From: Flavobacteriales bacterium
Lineage (GTDB): Bacteria; Bacteroidota; Bacteroidia; Flavobacteriales; BACL11
Direction of reading: 5' to 3'
Length of the DNA: 35,579 bases
Assembly (NCBI GenBank): GCA_014239655.1
Contig: JAAZYM010000048.1
Location: forward strand, 1 to 35,579
The translations under genes and the position numbers were made by a program. The notes beneath the pieces were generated by a model, which saw only the letters and a list, made by a program, of their open reading frames with translations, ran no database searches and was not told the DNA's origin. Positions 399 to 2,961 of the stretch are shown in pieces; the stretch's first letter is position 1, and the number at the start of each line of letters is the position of its first letter.

Positions 399-436
399 TT
401 TGGTGGACCTTCCGGTCCTTATTTCGAACTTTTTTA
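399..436 (-). repeat. Short hairpin repeat, copy 1 (GNRA tetraloop on minus strand)
   Basis: This 38-base element is identical to the one at 2001-2038 except for two adjacent bases. On the minus strand it reads a run of A, then GTTCGAAATAA, then GGACC-GGAA-GGTCC and ACCAAA. The inverted GGACC/GGTCC arms enclose GGAA, which fits the stable GNRA tetraloop class. It sits between the divergently oriented DUF523 gene and the HLMGG protein gene. It contains a TTCGAA palindrome. It resembles a tRNA 3' end only loosely and has no tRNA body. Function unknown. Confidence 0.8.
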
Positions 437-471
437 AAGTATTTGCTAAAAGTAAAAGATAATTTTTTTTA

Positions 472-479
472 TATATTTG
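472..479 (+). promoter_or_regulatory. Putative -7 promoter box for the HLMGG secreted protein
   Basis: The box is TATATTTG, a perfect TAnnTTTG match, 29 bases before the ATG at 509. A TTTG at 442-445 is 26 bases upstream, which is longer than the usual -33/-7 spacing, so only the -7 box is well supported. Confidence 0.5.
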
Positions 480-508
480 TGGAGATGTTAAACAAAAAAA
501 TATCAATT

Positions 509-1954
509 ATGAAAAAATTCTTACTTTTTATCTTAGCAGTCAGTTTTTCAATATCTTCATATTCTACCCATTTAATGGGTGGTCAAATTACAGCAACTTA
601 CTTAAGCTCAGATTCAACAGGGGTACATTACGCTTTAGATTTAACAGCTTATAGAGATACTATTGGTATACCTATGGGTATAAATGCAATCTTTCAAGTT
701 AGCGTTATGGATACATCTGGAAATTGGAATCCTTTATTTATTTCTACTGTTAGTTATGACACATCTTCAGGGAATTTATTTCTGCCAGTTCAATCTGTTT
801 ATGGTGTTGAAGTATACATATACCAGGACACAATAACTCTTCCAGATAGTGGGTATTATCAAATATCTTATACTGAATGTTGTAGAAATGGTGCGATAAT
901 TAATATGGCCAGTCCACTTAATGAAAGTATGACTCTAGCTACTTATATTAATGTTGATAGTGCAAGTCCTAATTCTTCACCTGTATTTTTAACACCTCCT
1001 GTTTCTTATTTACCTGCAGATACTCTATGGCAATATAATCCGCTTCCGTTTGATCCAGATGGGGATTCTTTATCTTGGAGTTTAGCGACTCCTCTTGGTG
1101 CGAGTACTACAGTGAATGGTTATGTATATCTTTCGGATACGCTTTATTCTAACTCTACGGGTATTTTTTCTTTAGACTCAGTAACAGGTGTTTTAAGCTG
1201 GGATGCTAGCATGATTGGGCATTTTGAAGCTTCTTTTGTTATTGAGGAATTTAGAAATGGATCTAAAATTGGAGAAATGAGGAGAGATATGCAATTTATT
1301 GTTATTCCTGATACTTCAAATTTTATGCCCAATATATCTAATATGCAAACAGTTCCTACTAATTCTGGAGGGTATCCATATGTCAAAATAAATCCTGGAG
1401 TGAATTATCAATTACATTTACTTGGAAATGATGCAAATCCAAATGATGTGTTAACAATGACAGCTTATGGAGAATCTTTTGGATTGTCTATATCTCCTTC
1501 ATTATTTAATTTTAATTCTACAGGAAATGGTAATGAAATAGAAGGAACATTTTCTTGGACACCTGATATAAGTCACGTACGCGTACAGCCTTACCTAACA
1601 GTGTTTAGAACTTCGGATAATACATTCTATTTTGATAATACGATTCAATTTGAAGTTACTTTAAGTAGCAGTACAGGTGTTGATAATATTGACTTTATAA
1701 GTGTTAATGACTTATACCCAAATCCGGCAAATAATAGCTTTACATTATCTTTAAATTTAGAAAAATCACAAGATGTGCATTTAGATATATATAATGTATT
1801 AGGTGTACGAATTTCAAATCAGGAATTAAATTTATCTGCAGGAAATCATTTAATTGTTAAGAATATAGATTTATCTGTCGGACAATATTTTGTGAAGATT
1901 AGTGATCAAAATGGAGTTTCAATTACAACAAAAAGATTAGTTGTTGTCAGATAA
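509..1954 (+). CDS. Secreted HLMGG-family surface protein with type A T9SS sorting domain
   Basis: This 481-residue protein starts at the ATG at 509: the next residues, MKKFLLFILAVSFSISSYST, form a signal peptide, whereas the frame upstream lacks signal-like sequence and covers the promoter. After the signal comes HLMGGQIT (residues 21-28) and later ECCRNGAIIN, both marks of a Bacteroidota family of large surface proteins. The middle holds Ig/cadherin-like beta segments (for example PFDPDGDSLSWSL). The last 80 residues, from LYPNPANNSF to KRLVVVR, are a typical type A C-terminal sorting domain, so the protein should cross the outer membrane through the T9SS and be processed by PorU. The exact surface role is unknown. 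The gene stands alone and ends at a strong terminator. Confidence 0.8.
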   Translation: MKKFLLFILAVSFSISSYSTHLMGGQITATYLSSDSTGVHYALDLTAYRDTIGIPMGINAIFQVSVMDTSGNWNPLFISTVSYDTSSGNLFLPVQSVYGVEVYIYQDTITLPDSGYYQISYTECCRNGAIINMASPLNESMTLATYINVDSASPNSSPVFLTPPVSYLPADTLWQYNPLPFDPDGDSLSWSLATPLGASTTVNGYVYLSDTLYSNSTGIFSLDSVTGVLSWDASMIGHFEASFVIEEFRNGSKIGEMRRDMQFIVIPDTSNFMPNISNMQTVPTNSGGYPYVKINPGVNYQLHLLGNDANPNDVLTMTAYGESFGLSISPSLFNFNSTGNGNEIEGTFSWTPDISHVRVQPYLTVFRTSDNTFYFDNTIQFEVTLSSSTGVDNIDFISVNDLYPNPANNSFTLSLNLEKSQDVHLDIYNVLGVRISNQELNLSAGNHLIVKNIDLSVGQYFVKISDQNGVSITTKRLVVVR

Positions 1955-1977
1955 TCAGATTAATTATCTTTATAATA

Positions 1978-1997
1978 AAACCCACTCGGGTGGGTTT
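1978..1997. terminator. Bidirectional intrinsic terminator between HLMGG gene and methyltransferase
   Basis: An 8-bp stem (AAACCCAC / GTGGGTTT) closes a TCGG loop. A T-rich stretch follows on the plus strand and TTATTATAAAG on the minus strand. It serves the convergent genes ending at 1954 and 2036. Its stem and flanks closely match the hairpin at 2855-2878. Confidence 0.85.
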
Positions 1998-2000
1998 ATT

Positions 2001-2038
2001 TTTGGTGGACCTCTCGGTCCTTATTTCGAACTTTTTTA
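2001..2038 (-). repeat. Short hairpin repeat, copy 2 (GNRA tetraloop on minus strand)
   Basis: This is the second copy of the element at 399-436. It differs only in the loop: minus-strand GGACC-GAGA-GGTCC here against GGACC-GGAA-GGTCC in copy 1. Both loops obey GNRA. The element begins with the TAA stop codon of the methyltransferase gene (2036-2038) and runs straight into its terminator, so here it would form part of that gene's 3' untranslated region. Function unknown. Confidence 0.8.
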
Positions 2039-2821
2039 TTTCTTCGTAGCTTTTAGATTAAATACATAAGGTGTACTATTTTCCTTTCTTTTATCTAAAA
2101 CATATTTTCCTTTTTCTTTTTTAATCATCCCATCCAATAAGAATGGGCTATAATCAAATTCTTCAAAATGTGTTAGTTTCAATCCGTTTGATTCTAATGC
2201 AGAAAATATATTTGTTAGTGAATGATTCCACCAACATGTTTTGGTTACTAATTCTGAACCTCCATCAGTGTAAGTGCCGTTTTCAATTTCAATATCAGGA
2301 TTATTATCGTAGAAATAGTCGTATCCATTATCTTTTATAAGTTCTAAGAAAGGATGAAATTCAGTTAATAGAAAGAGACCTCCTTTCTTTAAATGATCGG
2401 AAATAGTTTTAGCCCACATATCTAAATCAGGAAGCCATCCAATTACTCCATAAGAACTAAAAACTATATCAAACTCTTTCTTAAGTTTTAAATCTAAAAC
2501 ATCACTTTCTATAAATTTAACATGTATATTAATTTTTTTAGCTAATTTTTTAGCTTCCTTTATTGCTACATCTGAGAAATCTACTGCAGTTACTTTGGCC
2601 CCCATTCTTGCCAAGGAGATACTATCTTGGCCAAAATGACATTGTAGATGAAGTAACGATTTTTCTGTCACATCTCCGATAGCATTAAGTTCAATTAATT
2701 TTAATGAATTTTTTCCTTTCATAAATTCATCATTATTATAAAAATTAGATTTTATATGAACAGGAGTTCTTTTATTCCAGGCTTTTTTATTAGTTTCTAT
2801 ATGTTTCTTAAATTCAGTCAA
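2036..2821 (-). CDS. Class I SAM-dependent methyltransferase
   Basis: This 261-residue protein has a Rossmann-type SAM site: LLHLQCHFGQDSISLARMG followed by AKVTAVD (about residues 56-80), and a later SSYGVIGWLPD motif-IV-like stretch. The N-terminus NKKAWNKRTPVH is typical of a family of stand-alone small-molecule or protein methyltransferases whose substrate is not known. The start is a TTG at 2821: an in-frame TAA lies five codons upstream and the next ATG is at residue 34, which would remove the conserved N-terminus. An AAGGA lies a few bases upstream and may help this weak start codon. The gene is bracketed by two related terminators, so its transcription may depend on its own weak promoter or on read-through from the tRNA. 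Confidence 0.8.
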   Translation of the reverse strand: MTEFKKHIETNKKAWNKRTPVHIKSNFYNNDEFMKGKNSLKLIELNAIGDVTEKSLLHLQCHFGQDSISLARMGAKVTAVDFSDVAIKEAKKLAKKINIHVKFIESDVLDLKLKKEFDIVFSSYGVIGWLPDLDMWAKTISDHLKKGGLFLLTEFHPFLELIKDNGYDYFYDNNPDIEIENGTYTDGGSELVTKTCWWNHSLTNIFSALESNGLKLTHFEEFDYSPFLLDGMIKKEKGKYVLDKRKENSTPYVFNLKATKK

Positions 2822-2854
2822 ATTTCCTTGGGATTATATTGTGCTAAAATAATA

Positions 2855-2878
2855 AAACCCACTCATTTGAGTGGGTTT
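2855..2878. terminator. Terminator hairpin between tRNA-Val and methyltransferase
   Basis: A 10-bp stem (AAACCCACTC / GAGTGGGTTT) closes ATTT. On the minus strand it is followed by TATTATTTT, which fits an intrinsic terminator for the tRNA transcript. It shares the sequence ATAATAAAACCCACTC and GTGGGTTTATT with the terminator at 1978-1997. Confidence 0.8.
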
Positions 2879-2886
2879 ATTCTAAG

Positions 2887-2961
2887 TGGGCAATGAGGGA
2901 CTCGAACCCCCGACTTCCTCCTTGTAAGGGAGGCACTCTGAACCAACTGAGTTAATCGCCC
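2887..2961 (-). tRNA. tRNA-Val (anticodon TAC)
   Basis: A 75-base cloverleaf can be drawn on the minus strand. The acceptor stem is GGGCGAT paired with ATTGCCC (one G-T pair), followed by discriminator A. The anticodon stem is CCTCC/GGAGG around loop CTTACAA, giving anticodon TAC. The T arm holds GGTTCGAGTCC. The terminal CCA is not encoded, since the discriminator is followed by CTTAG. A TAnnTTTG promoter box lies 12 bases upstream and a terminator hairpin 9 bases downstream, so it can be transcribed as its own unit. Confidence 0.95.

Follow-up and report, generated by a model that had tools for sequence, protein, structure and literature searches.

Tandem one-gene cassettes in marine Flavobacteriales bordered by a repeat resembling a tRNA 3' end, a probable site-specific recombination site

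Tandem islands at tRNA and tmRNA gene ends are already known. In Dehalococcoides, ssrA islands lie in tandem downstream of the tmRNA gene with 20-bp repeats of its 3' end between them, and some lack integration genes of their own (PMC3146451). That system has one target gene, a serine-recombinase module and insertion in the T-loop (PMC3146451), whereas the arrays that we describe here adjoin RNA genes of several kinds and are inserted at their CCAC end; the units measure ~1 kb, the core that they share does not copy the target, and there is no such module. The direct repeats of Ca. Methylopumilus fGI-2 are the last 20 nt of one tRNA-Lys (PMC10872708). Like the present arrays, fGI-2 and Alteromonas fGI1 come from aquatic bacteria and consist of cassettes, variable in number, that are added at a tRNA gene; such additive flexible genomic islands reach tens of kb (PMC10872708, PMC4119200), whereas the present core is common to many genera and platforms. 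Tycheposons mediate tRNA-anchored gene exchange in aquatic plankton, measure 4–200 kb and carry a tyrosine recombinase (as described in PMC10872708); the one-gene units reported here have no tyrosine recombinase of their own.

Integrons share with the present arrays small cassettes with one site each, a single orientation, diverse cargo and a fixed platform. The present arrays differ in having no attC consensus, no IntI over the model cut-off, a tRNA or tmRNA gene as platform, and cassettes that often carry a promoter-like box. New here are a shared tRNA-mimicking site, one-gene cassettes exchanged between genera, and several RNA-gene platforms. Our literature search, made mostly without subscription papers, returned none naming this system in Flavobacteriales.

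The core repeat and the cassettes that it borders

The window, a 35,579-nt stretch of DNA, is one entire contig of a 1.46-Mb genome (88.5% complete). All data are draft assemblies, many of them metagenomic. A first-pass annotation of the window had reported a pair of 38-base repeats differing only in the loop of a hairpin, and our analysis confirmed this: the copies at 399–436 and 2001–2038 are identical at 36/38 bases, and their loops read TTCC and TCTC on the plus strand and GGAA and GAGA on the minus strand. With up to one mismatch, GGACCNNNNGGTCC occurs twice in the window against an expected 0.11, so the hairpin pair is above chance. Copy 2 adjoins the stop codon of a minus-strand methyltransferase gene and a terminator lies beyond it, which bears out the earlier reading of this copy. 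Copy 1 is on the 5' side of a minus-strand gene that is cut off by the start of the contig and that, from its translation, we take to be DUF523-like.

The annotation had asked whether further copies exist, and they do: the genome holds nine, two in the window and seven elsewhere. Four of these seven lie in a row on one contig (C39), in the same orientation and 0.75–1.24 kb apart, with small genes between them. Contigs of this genome frequently end close to repeat copies. A covariance model built from the nine copies gave 199 matches in 77 regions. These correspond to 178 distinct copies of a core of 34 bases, GGTGGRCC-TYNC-GGTCC-nnn-TTCGAACTTTTTT, that stands between small gene cassettes in uncultured marine Flavobacteriales. 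The model matched 43/149 relatives. Across the order it matched 46/398 genomes; the window's own family accounts for 37, and the other matched genomes fall in three further families. Searched across 84,980 species, the exact pattern was found in 35 DNA stretches, all but one named Flavobacteriales, Flavobacteriaceae or Bacteroidetes. The lone exception, binned as Dehalococcoidales (L098), is 82–83% identical to flavobacterial cassettes and has 31% GC; this contig is probably misbinned. Two scans of viral contigs with the exact pattern, as a search for a cassette vehicle, gave no match.

We defined a cassette as an interval of 150–5200 nt between neighbouring core copies. The 132 cassettes have a median length of 1149 nt and are 85% coding, and 91 hold one ORF. 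Core orientation was uniform within the locus in 77/77 loci, with 160 cassette ORFs on the plus strand and 44 on the minus strand. The first gene most commonly starts at +60. A TAnnTTTG box, of the kind described for Bacteroidetes promoters, lies at +48 in 31/132 cassettes, mostly with an ATG 4 nt later. Many cassettes close with a conserved terminator (AAACCCACTC...GAGTGGGTTT), which in the window occurs at cassette ends only. The cargo is diverse and includes type IX-sorted proteins, acetyltransferases, hydrolases, ABC transporters and redoxins; no recombinase was found among the 25 most frequent cargo families. The features of the window are collected in Table 1. We also observed that a stretch like GGTTGTAATCCTGCTACCCCGAC recurs near several cassette ends (core flanks in L116, L112, L117 and L014), and this is possibly another dispersed element.

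Table 1. Cassette array features in the window
Feature	Position	Strand	Remarks
Core copy 1, bordering cassette 1 on the left	402..435	+	putative crossover between 402 and 403
Cassette 1, 1602 nt	403..2004	+	core-to-core interval
Gene in cassette 1, encoding a secreted protein with a type IX secretion C-terminal sorting domain	509..1954	+	PF18962 at 3.7e-11; start codon chosen by us, open frame begins earlier
Terminator ending cassette 1 (AAAACCCACTCGGGTGGGTTT)	1977..1998	+	same motif at cassette ends elsewhere
Core copy 2	2004..2037	+	putative crossover between 2004 and 2005
Cassette 2, outermost, adjoining the tRNA gene	2005..2885	+	88.2% identity over 824 nt to G051 cassettes
Cassette 2 gene, class I methyltransferase	2036..2821	-	PF13649 at 1.3e-14
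Terminator ending cassette 2 (AAAACCCACTCATTTGAGTGGGTTT)	2854..2878	+	sequence
tRNA-Val(tac), putative platform	2886..2961	-	3' end (reverse complement GTGGGCAATGAGGGACTCGAAC) in core register

RNA-gene junctions and the exchange point

In 19 loci the array has an RNA gene on its right, and this gene is antisense in 19/19. Among non-redundant right flanks, the junction with the tRNA or tmRNA 3' end is in register with the core in 15/18. At the tRNA-Val junction, the cassette terminator runs into the gene end (...GGGTTTATTTT to the left of the junction, TGGTGGGCAATGAGGGACTCGAACC to its right), and tmRNA, Met and Phe junctions are built likewise; the window's own junction is slightly diverged (TTCTAAGTGGGC). 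Core and RNA gene have GTGG and TCGAAC in common, which are the CCAC and GTTCGA of tRNA in reverse complement; on its minus strand the core reads GTTCGAA, a small hairpin and CCACC. Because the CCAC end and the TCGAAC loop of the RNA gene take the place of a core, the core imitates a tRNA 3' end. Neither a full tRNA nor a direct repeat copying the 3' end of the target gene was found in it: the distance between the TTCGAA block and the CCA end is ~5 nt greater than that in a tRNA, Rfam calls no tRNA, and the core differs from the gene end in intervening sequence and length.

RNA genes in relatives that have no cassette there end in CCAC, followed by unrelated DNA. Those beside a cassette continue CAAAAAGAAACCCACTC, a sequence that also supplies an encoded CCA. 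At five loci (L277, L279, L281, L265 and L269) where no cassette adjoins the tRNA-Val or tmRNA gene, the full CCA end is not encoded; an adjoining cassette, where there is one, provides it. For many arrays the available sequence shows no tRNA, and some arrays without one within reach terminate in a variant core, GGTGGGCCTTTCGGATCTCGAATTCAAATTT (L116, L118, L179, L183, L211 and L214). The DNA beyond the variant core is nearly identical in L118, L211 and L214, and the variant may be a second kind of platform.

We compared cores between pairs of copies; these pairs are non-independent and we therefore claim no p-value. Where pairs shared the downstream cassette (97% or more), the core was the same in 12/13, with differences to its left; where they shared the upstream flank, it was the same in 0/10. 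Random pairs had the same core in 2.9%. In upstream pairs, core differences begin at position 1; in downstream pairs, flank differences extend as far as position 0. This places the exchange at G^GTGG, or CCAC^C as read on the tRNA strand, a point that coincides with the tRNA junction.

Near-identical cassettes were observed in distant genomes. Between genera, cassettes of G001 and G046 are 98.75% identical over 1.2 kb, compared with 67–69% (one stretch 85%) for the xerC/xerD regions of G046 and G000, a genome of G001's genus. Cassettes of G007 and G046 are 97.8% identical over 2.7 kb, and their xerC/xerD regions 67–68% (one stretch 86%). G040 and G111, which belong to different families, share 523 nt at 96.6%. 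Within one genome (G051), the same cassettes occur at 99.6% identity on two contigs, arranged C-B-A on one and C-[3.8 kb]-A-B on the other; deletion alone does not explain this difference, and an assembly error could account for it. No empty site or excised circle was seen in these draft assemblies, whose contigs end inside arrays.

Array anatomy, in-register tRNA and tmRNA junctions, the core travelling with its downstream cassette, the differing cassette order on two contigs of one genome and the near-identical cassettes in distant genomes can all be read directly from the assemblies. We consider it highly probable that site-specific recombination joins the mobile cassettes and that the repeat is the core of its site. 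Read in the direction of its core, each cassette opens with a single core; one or a few genes come next, then a terminator. Cassettes are joined head to tail, and the outermost abuts an antisense tRNA or tmRNA gene at that gene's 3' end. Since the core imitates a tRNA 3' end, the RNA genes would serve as platform, comparable to attI or attB, with the cores acting like attC. A recombinase would join DNA at G^GTGG. Excised cassettes, probably circular, would travel and insert again at a core or at the end of an RNA gene.

Candidate enzymes and alternative explanations

No recombinase tied to the arrays was found, and none consistently adjoins them. Tyrosine recombinases lie near one or two arrays only. 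One of them, a 397-aa protein encoded just downstream of tRNA-Pro (L180 1–1717, in G026), is a few kb from an array; its homologue in G018 (L252) is 94.7% identical, the two genomes belonging to two genera. Its tRNA has the opposite orientation, and we treated it as a separate element, probably one that moved recently. The core-bearing genomes that we examined have just one kind of tyrosine recombinase in common, XerC/XerD-like proteins, and G007 (88% complete) has two tyrosine recombinases, both XerC/XerD-like. Serine recombinases are not common to the core-bearing genomes, and a search for a shared Y1 transposase (REP / IS200-IS605-type) gave one weak match in 10 genomes. Within the site-specific explanation, we lean towards a tyrosine recombinase acting in trans as the likeliest enzyme.

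The first-pass annotation had suggested a minus-strand RNA, maintained as a GNRA hairpin, or a 3' UTR motif. Minus-strand loops are indeed GNRA in 149/160 copies, and the minus-strand core resembles a tRNA 3' end; yet column composition alone predicts 146 such loops, so there is no sign of GNRA selection beyond composition. Two loop types dominate (TCTC, 100; TTAC, 37). The third stem pair varies between A-T and G-T (79 and 56 of 137 rows), and G-T is a wobble on the plus strand and A.C on the minus strand. The A/G position faces T in 97% of cases, which suits the plus-strand stem and breaks that of the minus strand; 44% of copies carry the change that is A.C on the minus strand. Fully paired stems were found in 123/160 copies on the plus strand and 75 on the minus strand, and changes on both stem sides fill two cells only. 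Compensatory stem change together with GNRA beyond composition was thus not found on the minus strand. Cassette genes also lie mostly on the strand opposite to the proposed RNA (160 vs 44), and a 3' UTR motif leaves the single orientation, the tRNA-end junctions and the core travelling with one cassette unexplained. Selection for a GNRA hairpin is therefore not supported by the alignment, nor is the core as an RNA element, and we regard a structured RNA or 3' UTR element as very improbable. The inverted repeat is possibly a protein-binding or folded DNA site; predicted single-strand DNA folding of the core is weak on both strands. The annotation's third option, a small mobile repeat, came close, with the repeat itself appearing as the border marker of mobile cassettes.

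Among DNA-based explanations, a very slight chance attaches to an integron, or a CALIN (cassette array lacking integron integrase). The arrays do have tandem small cassettes, one orientation and diverse cargo, and some relatives have IntI-like tyrosine recombinases (G048, G012, G014 and G025, at L146, L168, L169 and L163, with remnants in L124 and L125). These proteins match the integron-integrase model at both ends and not in its middle (about positions 182–238), lacking the IntI-specific segment, and do not adjoin arrays where checked. No protein above the TIGR02249 cut-off was found in 149 relatives or 14 core-bearing genomes (some incomplete), 0/178 cores lie in a RYYYAAC...GTTRRRY span (3 in shuffled sequence), and the platform is an RNA gene; we judge this reading the least credible. 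It is also unlikely that the cores are passive repeats, old remnants shuffled by RecA exchange after DNA uptake. No recombinase is tied to the arrays, as that account would have it, and terminator and core are conserved together, so that roughly 60–90 bp of similarity would be available for RecA; but exchange points cluster at one core edge (12/13 vs 0/10) and are not spread across the core, and the differing tRNA and tmRNA ends share just CCAC and the T-loop with it, too short for homologous recombination, yet their junctions are in register. Ordinary tandem accretion of tRNA-targeted genomic islands, with cores as degenerate attR copies and integrases lost, deserves more weight, although we still doubt it. 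Islands with tRNA or tmRNA 3'-end repeats are known, and crossing over at RNA-gene ends is shared with them; against this, one conserved core recurs across many genera and is not a copy of the adjoining tRNA, and each unit of ~1 kb carries a single gene and lacks an integration module. This account overlaps the site-specific explanation and lies close to it, with a different history.

Beyond site-specific recombination itself, we propose, at somewhat short of an even chance, that the arrays are a second integron-like gene-capture system, in which a tRNA-mimicking site would make any suitable tRNA or tmRNA gene a landing platform and an enzyme in trans, perhaps XerC/XerD or that of a visiting element, would move one-gene cassettes between marine genera. 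The putative crossover point is located narrowly enough for testing in laboratory strains. If the proposal is true, a recombination site can exploit features common to many tRNAs rather than one target gene, and uncultured marine Flavobacteriales could swap single genes, many of them for secreted proteins, between genera.
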